This document shows positions 6,327 through 63,960 of a DNA stretch of 64,000 nucleotides, one piece after another; position 1 is the stretch's first letter; the number at the start of each line of letters is the position of its first letter. The position numbers and the translations under genes were made by a program. Source of the stretch: Membranipora membranacea (taxonomy: Eukaryota; Bryozoa; Gymnolaemata; Cheilostomatida; Membraniporidae). The notes under the pieces are model-generated. The model was not told the DNA's origin and did no database searches. It was given only the letters and a program-made list of their open reading frames with translations. Location of the stretch: assembly GCA_914767715.1 (NCBI GenBank), contig OU612069.1:4900001-4964000 (forward strand), read 5' to 3'.

Positions 6327-6747
6327 CTACCCTGCAGGGGCGTATATTCTAAAAATTTTCACCCACTGACTTTTTAGAGATGAGCATAATGATCGGGCGC
6401 AGCCCGATCCACACGCCGTAGGCGTGGCGGGGAGGGTGTGGGAGGGGCGCTTAAGCGCCCTCCCACCACGGAAATTTTTGCATATCGGTAGCAAAATAGT
6501 GCAAGCAGAGAGGTATTTCAATAGCTCACTGAGCTGTTGGGTACTTTCAGAAAACAACTCAATAGCAGTAGAAGATTACAGTAAAAATGCTCCAGTTATA
6601 AAGCACCCATTTGAAAAAAAACTGTCCTTGATGGGATTTGAACCCACAACAATCTGATTATAAGGCAGACGCTCTACACACTGAGCTATTCAGCCACTCA
6701 CGAAAATCCTTGGGCCGTGAGTGCTAATATACGCCACTGCTACCCTG
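6327..6747. mobile_element. hAT-like MITE, 405 bp, with 8-bp target-site duplication
   Basis: The element runs 6335-6739. It begins CAGGGGCGTATATT and ends AATATACGCCACTG, imperfect terminal inverted repeats of the CAG..CTG form. Both sides carry the same 8 bp, ctaccctg (6327-6334 and 6740-6747). An 8-bp duplication with such termini is the hallmark of hAT superfamily insertions. There is no transposase, so it is non-autonomous. Inside lie a GC-rich stretch with small palindromes (gcgcttaagcgc and similar, 6394-6465) and a tRNA-like sequence on the minus strand, making it a composite. Confidence 0.8.
6625..6697 (-). other. tRNA-like sequence inside a MITE (tRNA-derived, not a working tRNA)
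   Basis: Read on the minus strand, 73 bases contain an A box (TAGCTCAGTGTGTAGAGC), a paired D arm, an anticodon arm whose loop CTTATAA would give UAU (isoleucine), and a T arm with GGGTTCAAATCCC. The acceptor stem does not close: only about four of seven positions can pair. This fits a tRNA-derived SINE head or a tRNA pseudogene carried by the surrounding element rather than a functional tRNA gene. Confidence 0.55.
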
Positions 6748-40277: not shown

Positions 40278-42178
40278 CTAATTTTCCAGGGAGATAATCG
40301 AGAGTTTACCGAGCAACCTGGTTGAAGGGAAGTAAAATAACCTCTTATATCGGTATAAGCCAATGTGACAACTGAATGTTGTGATATTCCTTGAATCAGT
40401 TTGCAGCGCAAATTGCGTGAAACCTTCCTTCATGTCTAATTTGCTGAAAACCTTGCTGCCATTCATATCCTGTAATAAATCATCAACAGTCGGCATGGAA
40501 TGTCTTTCCCCAATAATTGCCTGGTTTGCCCTATGCATATCAACACATAGCCTAATATCCCGATTAGCCTTAGGTACAGAAATCAAAGGTGAAATCCACT
40601 GTGTAGGCTTTGCTACTACCTCTATGATATCTGATTTAACTAGCTGTTCTAGTTTAGCCTCTACTTTACTCCTCAGTGCGAATGGAACGCGATTATATGG
40701 TTGACACACTGGAGCTTCATTAGGATCTATTCCTATTTTTATATCTGGGCGTTTGAATTTACCTACGCCTGAAAATAAATTCTTATAGTTATCTAGCAGA
40801 CTACCGTAATTAGTGACATTACTGGTATTAGAATCTAAGCTGTTTACTCCTACATTGTAGCCTATTTTGATTAGTTTTAGTGCATGAGATGTATCATTAC
40901 TCAACAACGACGACTGATTCCTATCATTAATAATTATGATTTCAGCTGTTGCCCGCTGATTTCCTGCTTCTAGTTCCACATTGAAGCATCCGAACAAGTC
41001 TAAGGGCTTATCAGCAGTATACGGAAACAGTTCCAGGTCTGTCGGCTCTACTTTGGCTCTAAGACCTCTTGTCACAAGTAAATCAAATGTGTCTTTACTA
41101 ATCACATTGCTCTGTGAGCCAGAATCTACAAGCACATCAAGCGGAATGTTTCCTACTCTGATTTCAAGCTTGTCTAGATTAAACTTCGGCCTCATAGTTC
41201 TGCACTGAAATGCTGCCTGACCTTGATCAGCATTTTGACTACCTGCTGACAATTTAGAATGTACCTTTTTCTAAGGTTCAACACTCCTACACACAATAGC
41301 AAAATGACCTATTTTTGAGCATTTATTACACTGTTTATCCTTAGCTGGGCAGTTAGTATCACTACCAATATGAATGGAAGAACCCCACCTATAGCATGAT
41401 TCAGCGTTCTTACGGTTTGATGTACCTCTGTAGGATTTACCACCATTGGAGTTTTCATATCTGGGTTTTGGCTTGCCGCCACAATTTCCATGCCTAACAA
41501 ATGAGCCTAGTTGGTTGACACCACCTGTTGCATTGGGAAATTCATGAGCATTACTTTTAGCATTAGCGCTAGCACTAGGGTTTTTGGCCATTTCTCATTT
41601 CCCTATTTTGCATTTCGACCGCTTCATGTGATGCTGAAATACTCATTAGCTTTGCTAGGTCAAGAGTTGCCCCTGCTTCTAAGACCTTTTTTCAAGACAT
41701 CGTAAAAGCAGCCTGAAACAATCTGATCAAATATCGAGTCATTAACATCAACGTACTCAAAGCCTACAGAACCTTTCATAAGTCTACCTACGAATTGAGC
41801 TATCGTCTCACCTGCAGTCTGACACATTTGCCTAAACACATGATGCATGAACCTTTTATTTGGTTTTACCAAATGCGCGTTCAAGATTTGAATTGTGCCA
41901 TCATAATCATCTGGCTGACATTTTTCAGTAACCTCCTCGATTGAATCGTTATGATTCTTAAGCACCTCCCGAACACGTGGTCCACAACAGAACAACAAAA
42001 ATGCCTGGCCTTGTCTCCTAAGCGATGTCTCCTTAGCGGAAGTTCCACTGGGGTTGAACAAACCCTTACAATCAGCATAGCAATCGAACTCCTAGATCCA
42101 TGCCAACCAGGCTGTAGCTACTACACTTGCCTCACCTTCTTCCTCAAAATTACCTGGGCGTCCTATATCTAGACTCAT
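40278..42178 (-). pseudogene. Broken Ty3/gypsy-type retroelement (gag, zinc knuckle, protease, start of reverse transcriptase)
   Basis: Read on the minus strand from an ATG at 42178: a gag-like region (HHVFRQMCQTAGETIAQFVG), a CCHC zinc knuckle (CNKCSKIGHFAIVC, about 41298-41340), an aspartic protease motif (LVDSGSQSNVIS, about 41110-41150) and the front of a reverse transcriptase (RLCVDMHRANQ; FSKLDMKEGFTQF). It is not functional. There is a stop about 29 codons into gag, a frame break in an A-rich run near 41690, a stop between the knuckle and the protease, and loss of everything after the first third of the reverse transcriptase, including the YxDD site, RNase H and integrase. No long terminal repeats were recognised. 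It is an old, truncated insertion. Confidence 0.8.
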
Positions 42179-51153: not shown

Positions 51154-54100
51154 TCATATAAGCATCCAAATAAGAGGAGTGAGCTTACCTAGAAGTGGTT
51201 CAATCCTAGTAACCACCTGGTTTGGCACATTCGCAAACATCTCTGCTGAGTTCTGAATTTGGACTCCAGGTAGCAGATACAGTTTTCTCAGATTAGTGAA
51301 TGTGCAGACAGTTTTAGGCATCTGAGAGACATAAGAGGCAGCAGTGGGAGCTGCAGCAGCACCTCTGTTCAGGTTCTGATCTGTTCTCTTCACTCCATAT
51401 CTTGTCACTGATTCTCTTACCTGCAATTTTGATGGTTGAAAATGGTAATGTATCATCTGTAAGAGTTTGAATGACTTCATGATTGGTTAAATGATTTCAG
51501 AGAGTGTAAGGTTGAATTATATTTATGAAATATTAGAGGTGAGAATGACTCCGATCAAGAGATTTACTTCAATTGATGCATCAGTAGTTTAGAGTAAGTT
51601 GGGTTAGTCAGTTGCATTTATAGGCACTTAACCGTTGTGTCCATGAAGAAATATCTCAATATAACAAGGAACTTATGCAAGACTTACTATTTCAGCCAGA
51701 GATACAACATCATGCCTATGTCCCAGGGTGTATAGGGTCGCCACCAAAGCCCTGATGAAGGGTGATCCAACGCCAGGGTTCCTTGGTGCAGCAAAAGCTA
51801 CAATAGAAATTACTCTATGATACATAACAAATCCATTGACCCATTAATACCTAAGGTGGCTGTAGTCCTGCTGTAATTTTATTATGGAAGAATTCTTGAA
51901 ATAATCTTGAAATGATAATATGAGGGATAGTCCCCTCTAGTGCGATGGAATCATGACTGTACTGTACTGACTGTACTGTACAACCCCAAACAACTGCCAC
52001 TTCTAAACTTATATTGCTGTTTAAGCTGAATTTTTCTGCTGTTGAATACTCACAATCAAAGCTGGACTGCATAATGATCATATCTGATACAGATATGTCT
52101 TGTGTATCATTGTCCACTTCAAAGTCATTAGAACTCGGCATTGTCACAACTTGAGTGCTGCTATCAGTTTGGGGAGCTCTAACAGCTGCTGTTCCAGTAG
52201 TGAGGTCGTCTCTCAACATTTCCCGATTACCTTTTTGAAAAAACGCGGATATGATCATCAGCTGCAAGACTTAGTAGATATGCTATAAGCCTGTACTGTA
52301 TTGTATCAATTTCTTGATTTTATAAGCTAACTGTCTTGTTGTTTATGTCCTTTCAGTTTCAACTTCAGACATAATGTTATAAGCTACATTCTACTTAAAA
52401 ACAAAATCTGGTGCTGCTGCCTGATATTATTTCTCATTCAAGTTTAACAATACTTACTGCCAGCACATGCTTGTATGATCACAATCTTTGGTCGGCCTCT
52501 CATCACCGAGAAGTTCTTAGGAGAGAGTAGATTGTAAATATCCGTTAGTCTGATGAAGACTCTGTCAGAGCCAATAATACAGCCCTCGTCTCCATGACTG
52601 GTCAGAACGAGTACAAACGCCCCCATATGCTTGTGTACTGATTGACCGACTGGATCTGTTAACTGTGTCTCGCAGTGTATGGCTTCGATGATTTCCTAGT
52701 AAAAAAAAACTAACGTAAGTCCTCCATAAAAGGTTTAGTTTCTCAAATTATTGACTGAGATAGTTTACTGCGTTGATGTCATAGAGCAGTTACCCTGGAG
52801 CGTGGTCTGATATTGTCAAGGAGGGATGATTCTAAAGCCTGGTCATTCGTAACAATCAATCGTACATGTAAACAATTCACAGATTGTAAATGTTTAGCTT
52901 ACCCTTGCAGTGTAGGTTTTATGTTCACCTACAGTAACAAACCCTAGTTTGTCAAGCATACACTTGATATTCTGATAGTCATGTTCAGAACCTCTCCTTG
53001 TCTGGTTGCAGTCGTTAGAGACAATCAGAGCACGTCCTCGGCATTCTGTCATCTGGTAAACAGTCTGAAAATAATCAGAAAATGAAGCCTTGATGATATT
53101 TGAACTATTTTGTTGCCTCGTAAGCTTTAAGATCTGAGAATTGTACCAAGGAACTTCCGAACCACAGCTGTAATTATTCACTTCATAGACACAGCCTTCT
53201 AAGTTTGTGTGAATACATGAAAATATCGATCAAAATCATAACAAAGTAGCAGCTTTATAAACCTGGCTTTCAGGGATTAAACTCTGATCTGCTTGTTGTG
53301 GTTCCATATCTATCTGGGGTTGTCTTCTTTTCATGATCTCCACTACATCCTGAACTTCGGACATCTGGATCTCTGGTATGCTCTGGCCAGGATCATCTGC
53401 TGTGAGAACAGGAGGAGGGTCAGGTTTTACATAGTGCTTATTAAAATTTGAATTTTCTCTGCCTGTTTTCTTTTTACCGTAGAAACCAAGTTTCGCATGA
53501 TAAATTCAGTAAAAGACAGCTGTTGACTGACCTGATCCCGCAGTTGTCTCCTCCCTTCTTATGTAGTCATCAAGAATTCTGACTCCCTCCTCACTGATCT
53601 TAAGACCTGTTCGAAACAACAGCAAAAATGGCAAGGTTAGCACCCTTATTGAAACAATCACTTGGTTAACATGCAATCCCGAAAATTAATGCTACAAATG
53701 GTAACAAATGAATTAATCGGATCTGCTGAGGCAGATAATGATATTTTTCCATGAACTTACATGGATATCTGAGAGGTAGCGGGACACGCCTCCTCCCATC
53801 GTTGGTGTCACATGAACAAGTCTCCTCTCCAGTGTAGGTGGTATGACGGGGCTCTGGCAGTTTGTATCCGACACTCCTGTTGAACCACTCAGGATTGACA
53901 AATGTTGCTGGTGATGACTGTTTGGTCAGTAGGCAATGAGAGCAGTAGAAGACATGGTCATATCGAACTCCTTTCCACACGGAATCCAATTCAGATGTAA
54001 GCCGCTTCATTGTTTCTAGTTGGGTCTTCCAAGCATCGCTGATAAGCCTGGCCGGTGTTTGCGTGATGAGTGTCACTTGTTTTTCTTTCTCATTATGCAA

Positions 54101-55682
54101 TAGATACCGCAAGACTCCGCTCATCTCTTGCACACTCGCTCCATTTATACCAGCTTCAGGTGTGTTGAATGGATTGACACATATGTCTAGAAATCCTGCA
54201 GTGATTACATGATATACGTATTGCGGCACGGTGAGGCCGTTTAGATACAGATCGACTCTCAGCTGAAGGTGATTTGTGCCTTCTGTTGGGTTTGGTATGT
54301 TCTTAGTGCTGAAGTAGGGAACGATGAACTTCTCACTGCCATCACTTTCTTTAGGTCCAATGATCAGGTGAAATGTTTTCAGCAGGGTGATACCAACATC
54401 AGCAGGTAGTTCCGATTCTTTGCTGAGCAGATTGTGTAGTAATGCAGCTCTTATGATTCCTGTGGCTTTGAAATCATTGACCATGCTGACATACTCTCTT
54501 CTTTCCACAGGTCTTCCCTTGTATCTGTAGGGTCTAAATTTGGTTATGCGATGTTCCCATGCTTGAGAATCTGCATGATCGTAAAGTGTCCTTATGACAT
54601 CAGCAAGAACTGAAGGGCGATGGAATGAATAGTCACTCAGCTTCTCAACGTCCTGAAACCACATTATTCTTCCTGCTTCTTTGACGTACTGCAAAGCATG
54701 CTCACTGTTCTTACTGAAACCTTGTATGAAGTCAGTAACAGAAACATAAGGCTTTTGCTCTTCAGCAGTAAGCTTATTCAGCACTTCATACCAACTACCG
54801 GGTATATCAGTGATCAGCTTAGCCCCTGCTTCCTTTAGTGCGCTCTTTAATGATTTGATATCCATCTTGCTCGATGAAGCCGAGAGCTCTAGTATTGTTG
54901 TGATCAGGGGCTGTGCTGTGTCGATGAAAGATGTCATTGAAAAAAATGAGCTGTCAGGCATAGCAACACCCTCTTCTGATTGAATTACATCTAAACGCAG
55001 CTTCTCTGTTGCTGATAAAAGCTGTTTCTTCCTCAGTTTGAGGGTCTCGTTGCTAAGCAGATCACCATGAGTCAGTACGAGCACTGGTCTTCCTAGATTT
55101 GGTTGTGATGTATATAGGTGCGCTATCCACCGGAAGCATACATCCTGAGCTGCAGCCTCTACTCCATGCGCAGGTACTAAACTGTCAAACTCTGCTATAT
55201 CTACCACTAGAAGTGGTACAGATTGTACTTTGGCGTTCACTTGATAGGCAAGGTGATACACCTCATGCCCTCCCAAATCAGTGAATACCAACTTCAATTT
55301 CTCATCAATGTCAGCCTCGCATACATTGAAGACACGTGTTGCCTCATCAAGCTTGATGTCGATATCCGAACGGGTTGTCAGCACACGCTGATCCTTCTGT
55401 ACGCTCCTCACAACGCTTGTTTTTCCTGCTTTAGTCTTGCCTATGACTGTTACCGGAATGAGCCTGAAAATGTTATCTTTTTCAGCATGAAGATCCTGCA
55501 GATACTTCCTTACAGCTTTTAAACCCCGTTTGCAGACAGCATAGGGAGGAGATACTAGTGCTTCGCATTGGTTACATTTGAAGGTCGTTAGCGTGCTGAT
55601 ATTGAAGATACTTTCAGGTATAGAGGAGAGTGATCTGTTTCCGCTAATATGAAGTCCTTCCAGTTTGGTGAGTTGCCCCAGG
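51154..55682 (-). CDS. LRR-Roc-COR-caspase fusion protein (5' partial)
   Basis: Eight exons agree in phase: 53761-55682, 53532-53606, 53263-53399, 52903-53064, 52458-52695, 52054-52230, 51688-51797 and 51154-51420 (reading through a possible donor at 51188 to TGA). They give 1,028 residues. The big exon has one or two leucine-rich repeats (LTKLEGLHISGNRSLSSIPE), then a Roc GTPase with P-loop GKTKAGKTS, switch DLGGHEVYH and the Roco-type THGD in place of NKxD. A COR domain follows (LQYVKEAGRIMWFQDVEKLS and on). After an acidic linker comes a caspase: CRGRALIVSND, LTSHGDEG with the catalytic His, IIQACAG with the catalytic Cys, and a small subunit with PRNPGVGSPFIRALVATL, ending TNLRKLYLLPG. 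The Arg residues expected to hold a substrate Asp (CRG; PRN) are kept. The Asp-rich linker NDFEVDNDTQD could be where the subunits are cut. No kinase domain follows COR. Upstream LRR exons are missing; reading through the first acceptor gives an ATG at 55738. A cell-death or immune role is inferred. Confidence 0.88.
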
Positions 55683-56015: not shown

Positions 56016-56470
56016 GCCAACTAATGACTGAGTACTAAATTGTGAGTTTGTTACTCGCAGCAGGGCCAAATGATAGCAAGTATCACAACACCCGCTATCC
56101 CAACAAATTAAAGAAAAAGTTTGCTTTTATTTCTTTTTCGATGAAATGCAATGTTATGTAGAATAATAAGGCATTCTTTCGTTTGTTATTTATCACTTCT
56201 GTTGTGACAGCCCATGACCACCCTATTAATTTGATCAAAATTGTAGCGCTGATTGTTTTTCATTCTTTTGCTAATCTGCTAACCAATTTCAACATAAGAC
56301 CACCTCCAGTATGCAGTGAATTTATTACTTTGTGAGGCCTTATGCTGTTCTCTAGGCTTTGGGAGTCAAGGTTCAACCCTGAACCCCGTATCGGGGGGTT
56401 GGGGGGGGGGCTTACAGCGCTTTTCCCAAAGCTGAGAATAATTGATATGACACTGCGCTGCACAGGATAC
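56016..56470. repeat. Dispersed repeat, copy 1
   Basis: Shares order and sequence with 63521-63960: actgagtactaaa-tgtgagttt at the left, ctaggctttggg and a long G-run followed by cttacagcgc near the right. Both copies have the same orientation. Family unknown. Confidence 0.55.
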
Positions 56471-58625: not shown

Positions 58626-58870
58626 TAGACATGACACTATATGGATATTGAGGCACTGAGGGACTTAATTGTGGGCAACGTTACGTCATTGGAAGGTGTA
58701 AAAGCAATGATGCTATCATTGATTTTCTGTCTACAATCCAGATTTTTTGTTCATAACTCGATCAATTTTGATCGGATTTTGAGATTAAAAATTACAATAG
58801 ATTTAGCAGCTCATCTCATTTACGCCATAAAAGATTTGGAACTCAGTGACCTGTTACCCCACAAATTTGA
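58626..58870. repeat. Left arm of a widely spaced inverted repeat
   Basis: Diverged but clearly the reverse complement of 60795-61035. Shared blocks include caattgtgggcaa / ttgcccacaattg, atcattgatt / aatcaatgat and gttcataactcgatcaattt / aaattgattgagttatgaac. The arms are about 1.9 kb apart. An open frame (58641-58916) crosses the left arm but resembles no family I know. Confidence 0.6.
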
Positions 58871-60794: not shown

Positions 60795-61035
60795 ATAAGG
60801 AGGAAACCATATAAGTCACTGAGAAGCAGAAATAACATCAATTTGATAACAAGATGCTGCTGTTTGTAAAGCAATTTTGAAACTCGATATCCGATCGAAA
60901 TTGATTGAGTTATGAACATAAAACCTGAATTGTTGACAGTAAATCAATGATAATATCATTGCTTACTACACCTGCCAACGACGTTGCATTGCCCACAATT
61001 GAGGCCTCACTTCAGCTATATGTAGTGTCCTGTCT
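60795..61035. repeat. Right arm of a widely spaced inverted repeat
   Basis: Reverse complement partner of 58626-58870, ending tgtagtgtcctgtct where the left arm begins agacatgacactata. Divergence of the arms suggests an old structure. Confidence 0.6.
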
Positions 61036-63520: not shown

Positions 63521-63960
63521 ACGCCAAAGACTAACTGAGTACTAAAATGTGAGTTTGCTACTTGCAAAAGGGTCAACTGGTACCAAGTTGCACAGCTGCT
63601 ATCTCTACAAACTCAATAAAAATTTAACTCAACTTGATTTTGTTTCAGGCATGACCTCATATTGGCCGACAACTGTATTGTAAAATGATAAGTTATTCTT
63701 TATTTTCAGTTATCAGCTCATGCCCGCCAATTTAATTGTTGATTGTTTTATTCCTTTGATAATTTGACAATCAAGTTAATTTATTAATTTGTATGGTCTT
63801 ACATTGTTATCTAGGCTTTGGGGAAGGGGCTCTGCCCAGAACTACATTGGGGAAGGAGGGGTGGGGGGGGGGGCTTACAGCGCCTCTCTCAAACCAAGGA
63901 GCTTTATCTCTCAAACCCAAGAGTTTATTTGGTGTGACGCTGCTTAGCAATCTTAGAAGT
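63521..63960. repeat. Dispersed repeat, copy 2
   Basis: Same orientation as 56016-56470, with matching left (aactgagtactaaaatgtgag) and right (tatctaggctttgggg, G-run, cttacagcgcc) parts and a diverged centre. It reaches nearly to the window edge, so its end is not certain. Confidence 0.55.

Follow-up and report, generated by a model that had tools for sequence, protein, structure and literature searches.

The best-known animal systems distribute sensor, adaptor, and caspase over several polypeptide chains. In the CED-4/CED-3 apoptosome and the NLR–caspase-1 inflammasome, an oligomerizing NTPase gathers the caspases, and the separate chains are linked through CARD or PYD domains. Here we describe a gene of the cheilostome bryozoan Membranipora membranacea that departs from this arrangement, as a Roc-COR GTPase and a caspase are predicted to lie on one polypeptide. 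The gene is located in a stretch of 64,000 nucleotides that was analyzed as a whole (hereafter, the window). It probably represents a large bryozoan family encoding single-chain receptor-caspases, with leucine-rich repeats (LRRs) as the sensor, Roc-COR as a nucleotide-dependent dimerizer, and the caspase as the output. Such a protein may combine a receptor with an executioner of its own.

A bacterial counterpart has already been predicted by Kaur et al. 2021, who describe bacterial LRR-AP-GTPase(Roc)-COR proteins with C-terminal effectors that include a caspase (PMC8195603). These prokaryotic AP-GTPase-COR proteins share with the bryozoan one the order LRR, Roc, COR, and C-terminal effector, as well as the occurrence of several paralogs per genome; their caspase is one of at least 24 effector types, and the copies of a single bacterium carry different effectors (PMC8195603). 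The bryozoan gene, in contrast, has introns, and its caspase is nearest to CED-3 among solved structures. As far as architecture goes, LRR-Roc-COR followed by an effector is found in the window protein (with one LRR) and in its relatives from the bryozoan Watersipora subatra (with full LRRs).

In a different kingdom, a C-terminal peptidase of ROCO proteins falls under IPR009003, which we take to be a trypsin-type peptidase. It occurs in group 3 of the brown-algal ROCO proteins, which likewise consist of LRR-Roc-COR plus a C-terminal peptidase (of an entry other than the caspase). The brown-algal ROCO genes carry their LRRs on exons of one repeat each, and a function as immune receptors has been proposed for them (PMC11378527). 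Among animal proteins, MFHAS1 (MASL1) shares the LRR-Roc-COR core. The GTPase is described as the sole catalytic activity of MASL1 (PMC6320773), whereas the bryozoan protein adds a C-terminal caspase and, because of it, falls outside a class in which Roc is the only catalytic domain. The ROCO genes of the placozoan Trichoplax carry CARD and death domains and are likewise an animal ROCO expansion tied to cell-death modules, although they are described with an adaptor domain and not with the protease itself (PMC4104024). As many as forty animal ROCO domain combinations have been counted in a study whose main text does not contain the word caspase (PMC11378527). An earlier note on this DNA knew of no described animal ROCO with its own caspase. 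We found none either in open-licence papers, so that the animal LRR-Roc-COR-caspase appears new, but a bacterial version is in print (PMC8195603).

Gene structure and domain order

A sequence search of the M. membranacea genome places the window at C5:4900001-4964000, which we take to belong to chromosome 5. The gene model was predicted from genomic DNA: eight exons on the minus strand (55682..51189), all with AG..GT boundaries and separated by seven introns of 132 to 267 nt, were spliced in silico into a 1017-amino-acid (aa) frame with zero stops. The earlier note had proposed one phase-consistent gene, and its three junctions (53761/53606, 53532/53399, and 53263/53064) are indeed bounded by AG..GT, with four more introns joining the eight exons. 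It had also read a Roc domain with GTP-binding motifs, a COR domain, and then a caspase with its His, Cys, and arginines; this order and these residues are all found in the joined protein, which runs from the last LRR through Roc, COR, and a linker to the caspase. The true 5′ end of the gene lies outside the window, and exon 8 has two possible ends, either a splice at 51189 or a run-on to a stop at 51154.

Exon 1 (53761..55682, 1922 nt; all features of the gene are on the minus strand) is assigned by Pfam, structure model, and donor conservation to the last LRR, Roc, and COR, and it ends with a GTAAGT donor after PLPLRYPC. Exon 2 (53532..53606, 75 nt) encodes a predicted post-COR helix, LKISEEGVRILDDYI, that aligns with the W. 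subatra relatives, and exon 3 (53263..53399, 137 nt) encodes a linker in which EVQD|V may be a self-cleavage site of the caspase type. The caspase follows on exons 4 to 8. According to Pfam and alignment, exon 4 (52903..53064) starts the p20 part and carries the TRRGS arginine (aa 734), and exon 5 (52458..52695) carries by alignment the catalytic His (SHG, aa 799) and Cys (QACAG, aa 842). Exon 6 (52054..52230) holds, in the splice model, an Asp-rich p20-p10 linker (8 Asp in 51 aa) and the start of p10. Exon 7 (51688..51797) aligns over the substrate-Asp-binding Arg of p10 (APRNPGVGS, aa 909), and exon 8 (51189..51420) is predicted from splice model and alignment to contain the end of p10, CTFTNLRKLYLLPG, and a C-terminal tail.

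The end of an LRR region had been claimed as well. One LRR is recognizable at the start of exon 1 (55484..55681, aa 1-66 with its connector, the extent taken from the model; profile score of 16.5 bits, runner-up 7.6 bits), but the profile finds no further one in the window, and a simple regular-expression search for LRRs upstream of the gene gave chance-looking matches only. An LRR-like exon about 18 kb upstream, at C5:4973504-4973749 and thus outside the window, is a candidate part of the gene. A paralog (L012) has a similar candidate exon about 5 kb upstream, and another locus (L019) has several LRR-like frames with a candidate link to its gene. In brown algae, single LRRs are described as separate, shuffled exons (PMC11378527).

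Read unspliced, the COR exon meets a stop about 30 codons beyond the donor, and upstream of the p20 exon the frame runs into a stop before any Met. At the DNA level, the COR-end motif is followed by GT[A/G]AG[T/C] in all 16 loci of the same genome in which the motif was found, not counting the window (L004, L006, L010-L017, L019-L023, and L026; L003 is the same place as L022), seven of which (L010-L016) are near-identical copies. In the seven C5 copies, the pattern has a further, unrelated match upstream of the P-loop, where GC follows, and this was excluded from the count; another locus, L024, has a Roc-COR match and no COR-end motif by pattern. Of 22 Roc-COR exon frames found on contigs of ENA, Logan, and JGI, 21 extend to PxPLxxPC or a similar motif and end 0-65 residues later, and 15 of these 21 then read, at the protein level, as a GT[A/G]AGT donor would. 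A COR exon ending in its own 3′ untranslated region (UTR), which the earlier note named as a refutation, is therefore contradicted on the DNA by the conserved splice donor at the COR end. Judging from genomic sequence, the predicted ROCO and caspase parts form one gene.

The Roc-COR and caspase units

Pfam matches Roc at aa 77-167 (25.8 bits; cut-off of 27) and COR-A at aa 294-371 (22.9 bits; cut-off of 35.3). The domain search that had been suggested for the joined protein thus scores above the Pfam cut-off for Peptidase_C14 but below it for Roc and COR. The Roc GTPase (about aa 71-285; 54827..55471) is supported by the alignment, the model, and a structure match, too, and it shows the GTP-binding motifs GKTKAGKTS (P-loop, G1), DLGGHE (G3), and THGD (G4), similar motifs being present in W. 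subatra. The COR domain (about aa 290-641; 53761..54814), a predicted dimerizer, matches 3dpu, 3dpt, and 6hlu. A model of exon 1 built with 26 relatives (pLDDT 83.7, pTM 0.83) matches the C. tepidum LRR-Roc-COR structure (6hlu, E 1.3e-19), LRRK1, LRRK2, M. barkeri Roco2, and isolated COR, the structures in question being 6hlu, 8e05, 3dpu, 4wnr, and 3dpt. As modelled, the first exon thus has the tandem Roc-COR fold of the ROCO family. The W. subatra relative P0026, modelled at full length (pLDDT 74.6, pTM 0.62), matches Roco/LRRK structures over residues ~1-726 and caspases over ~814-1092. Neither NACHT nor NB-ARC, the ATPases of NLR/STAND receptors, was matched when Pfam was run on the window protein and on 15 relatives, and the NTPase position is taken by the Roc fold.

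The caspase is recognized with far higher scores, with Peptidase_C14 at aa 720-979 (96.3 bits; cut-off of 21.4; E 2.9e-27) and CED-3 as the best solved relative by sequence, the match extending over the caspase. In caspases, the His and Cys are catalytic and the arginines bind the substrate's P1 Asp. His799, Cys842, Arg734, and Arg909 align with the equivalent residues of the relatives and of CED-3, and the window caspase is thus predicted to carry intact catalytic residues. It has QACAG and GSPF, compared with QACRG and GSWF in CED-3, and the p10 Arg is replaced by Lys in the alignment of two W. subatra proteins (P0027 and P0028). As a side observation, the p20-p10 linker is lengthened by STTVNSTSAPQ-like repeats in P0027 (186 residues) and P0032 (124 residues).

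Relatives in Watersipora subatra

A protein search with the window protein found 24 relatives, including two W. subatra proteins that cover 98% of the query, and a second one, for which residues 1120-1386 of P0017 served as the query, returned nine W. subatra proteins and no others, P0017 among them. According to Pfam, an essentially complete caspase is present in nine W. subatra proteins (P0017, P0018, and P0025-P0031) and a shortened one in P0021 and P0032. Eight of the nine caspase-bearing proteins also match LRR and either Roc or GTPase entries with E values of 0.01 or lower (the Roc ones under the Pfam cut-off); P0029 begins within Roc. COR was mostly missed by Pfam in these proteins and is assigned from alignment and fold. 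A profile of the nine, with the window excluded, matches aa 3-993 of the window protein as one domain (761.5 bits). Several of the relatives are named MFHAS1 by NCBI, and others are uncharacterized. These proteins come from the NCBI set, whereas the statement that the W. subatra annotation derives mainly from transcript alignment was made for the Ensembl set (PMC12902671). W. subatra is the only organism named by three protein searches, which required shared 5-residue words and two of which scored just the 7991 and 7994 candidates with the most such words, for which reason absence of the family elsewhere is a weak result.

In a midpoint-rooted Roc-COR tree of 36 rows, a W. subatra side (13 proteins plus 3 rows from other contigs) is separated from a window side (the window plus 19) by a branch of 0.85 changes per column. 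As caspase fusions occur on both sides, the predicted Roc-COR-caspase fusion is most simply older than the split between them.

A gene family in M. membranacea

The earlier note regarded the gene as an isolated case and suggested looking for the same order in other sponge, cnidarian, and placozoan genomes. The host is a bryozoan, however, and the gene belongs to a multigene family of cheilostome bryozoans. The genome searched has 339,339,785 bases in 18 contigs, compared with 339,374,674 bases in 21 scaffolds for the published assembly (PMC10290214), a difference of a few small scaffolds. Among the best candidates, which alone were scored, Pfam caspase matches amount to at least 145 exons grouped into at least 137 places; as the matches are exons, these figures are not a gene count. 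They lie on C1, C3, C5, C8, C9, C10, and C11, and many of them are densely clustered, as at C9 0.2-2.5 Mb, C1 31.5-37 Mb, C3 22.8-23.6 Mb, and C5 4.1-7.6 Mb.

Besides the window, 24 of the 137 places were examined, 19 of them hand-picked with long flanks and five (L002, L004, L005, L006, and L008) with 1.5-kb flanks. Seventeen of the 24 (L010-L017, L019-L024, L026, L004, and L006) have a Roc-COR exon, or its COR end, upstream of the caspase and in the same orientation. At L017, L019, and L024, the best Roc-COR query is P0017 rather than the window, and M. membranacea therefore has more than one branch of the family. Wherever the catalytic motif was matched at Roc-COR-linked loci, it reads QAC[A/S]G; among the places whose stretches show no Roc-COR, L018 and L025 have the same form, and L028 (L007) has QACRG. 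L018 (C9:2129500-2139400) has a caspase and no Roc-COR match in the ~8 kb upstream, where its neighbors have one, and it is possibly a stand-alone or broken copy.

Seven copies on C5 are 97.7-99.0% identical in DNA to the window gene. Exons 1-7 are equal in length in all seven, as is exon 8 in the four where it was covered in full; every joined frame is stop-free, and SHG, QACAG, and APRNPGVG are kept throughout, the exon-1 acceptor of L011 reading CG. Mean Ka/Ks among the eight C5 copies is 0.67 for Roc-COR and 0.60 for the rest, from 28 non-independent pairs and with no claim of selection; compared with L013 (99.0% identical), the window gene has 17 non-synonymous and 3 synonymous changes in Roc-COR. 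Architecture, motifs, their conservation, and the expansion of paralogs are thus direct observations.

Proposed mechanism

Initiator caspases are activated by induced proximity. How the protein would work is an inference, and this applies to ligand sensing, to the direction in which the nucleotide switch operates, to self-cleavage, and to any part played in immunity or in self/non-self rejection. A ligand on the LRRs would shift the nucleotide state of Roc and the dimerization of COR, and COR pairing would bring two caspase domains together. The paired caspases would then cut the Asp-rich p20-p10 linker and perhaps the COR-caspase linker too, the freed protease leading to cell death or a local alarm. 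With caspase and COR dimerizer in one chain, no CARD adaptor would be needed. CtRoco is reported to dimerize mainly via the C-terminal part of COR, and the same review proposes a GTP-bound monomer and a GDP-bound dimer (PMC6337361), for which reason the active state may be a GDP or nucleotide-free dimer. The self-contained switch of the earlier note holds up in so far as sensor, GTPase/dimerizer, and protease are combined in one chain, in a second bryozoan genus and in the home paralogs as well; the part in which GTP binding itself turns the protease on finds no support in that form, as the sign may be the opposite (PMC6337361).

The COR-caspase linker contains the motif [DE][LVI]xD[VSTAGN] in 11 of 12 sequences, with P0018 a miss in the count and ELSDT by eye. 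Shuffling single sequences yields the motif in 4-14% of cases for those 11, for a pattern picked after seeing the sequences, which are related. The motif is suggestive and may mark a point at which the caspase releases itself, while SDVE, the form in W. subatra, might instead be recognized by a kinase.

More tentatively, and short of calling it probable, we suggest that cheilostome bryozoans evolved an inflammasome-like repertoire of many clustered, single-chain LRR-Roc-COR-caspase receptors. These would serve cell death in immunity or in the self/non-self recognition of colonies, their LRR exons would diversify, and the caspase would release itself at the linker.

Several observations count against the single-chain receptor-caspase. 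The window holds a single LRR, and the LRR-like exon ~18 kb away is a candidate link only; the Roc and COR matches both stay under the curated Pfam cut-offs; P0023 and P0024 of W. subatra lack a caspase match; and no Roc-COR was seen in 7 of the 24 places (L018, L025, L027, L028, L002, L005, and L008, the flanks of the last three being too short to judge). MAFFT, moreover, does not align EVQD of the window with the DLSD column of W. subatra, although a profile HMM does, and the proposal that GTP favors the monomer would reverse a simple GTP-on picture (PMC6337361).

Alternative explanations

Two adjacent genes, an MFHAS1-like ROCO and a caspase, could have been wrongly joined. The Met codons in linker exon 3, the two W. 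subatra proteins without a caspase match, and the L018 caspase would fit this. Both parts are nevertheless found together in nine annotated W. subatra proteins (annotation itself being no proof), the profile match runs through the linker as one domain, the donor sits right at the COR end across the own-genome loci and most contig frames, and p20 lacks a start. Donor conservation, the one-domain match, and the missing p20 start lead us to reject the two-gene model, which we regard as very improbable. A recent transfer from, or contamination by, bacteria with LRR-Roc-COR-caspase proteins is less credible still. An identical domain order is predicted in bacteria (PMC8195603), but seven introns, the chromosome-level placement, and CED-3 as the closest solved relative of the caspase by sequence count against it. 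A one-pattern search of genome_contigs adds a weak argument, as none of the 23 stretches matched encodes a relative; a one-pattern scan of viral_contigs confirmed no relative, and PADLOC made no call for three proteins.

The two other alternatives accept the fusion and concern its function. The caspase could be a regulatory, inactive, or altered-specificity domain, pseudoprotease-like, with the protein acting as a scaffold. QACAG and GSPF in place of the CED-3 motifs and the Arg-to-Lys change in P0027 and P0028 would suit a scaffold, but the window copy keeps His, Cys, and both arginines, and the three caspase motifs persist in all seven C5 copies. The residue after the catalytic Cys varies in active caspases, too. 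About 70% of the caspase domains at one bacterial effector position are reported inactive (PMC7159879), and even so we consider this alternative quite unlikely. Somewhat less unlikely, yet still not what we expect, is a family that has no role in immunity and serves developmental cell death or colony remodelling, of which polypide regression is an example. For Mytilus coruscus, the expansion of caspases has been connected with metamorphosis and with stress (PMC10967218). A receptor repertoire is the better match for the LRRs, the near-identical local copies, and the divergent clusters spread over several chromosomes, which is an argument from pattern only.

Other features of the window

Probable retroelement remains lie at 40278-42091 on the minus strand, where a 330-aa frame gives a reverse transcriptase match of 21.5 bits (cut-off of 29.6); a 143-aa frame beside it has no Pfam match. 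Rfam gives a tRNA-like match at 6631-6688, also on the minus strand (43.7 bits, covering positions 8-63 of 71); ARAGORN makes no call there, and the stretch is perhaps tRNA-derived. Upstream of the gene, there are dispersed direct repeats (56016-56363 and 63523-63822) at a distance of ~7.5 kb and inverted arms (58661-58810 and 60856-61006; 109 and 40 nt) at a distance of ~2 kb.

Biological significance

If the single-chain receptor-caspase is real, it would be a minimal death receptor, open to direct testing and expanded in a colonial animal, and animals would have arrived at a design hitherto predicted from the genomes of bacteria. Roc-COR is also the switch of LRRK2, the Parkinson kinase, and a caspase attached to it would provide a proteolytic output from which the effects of its GTP cycle could be read. 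For the Bryozoa themselves, the family would supply candidates for immunity and colony recognition.

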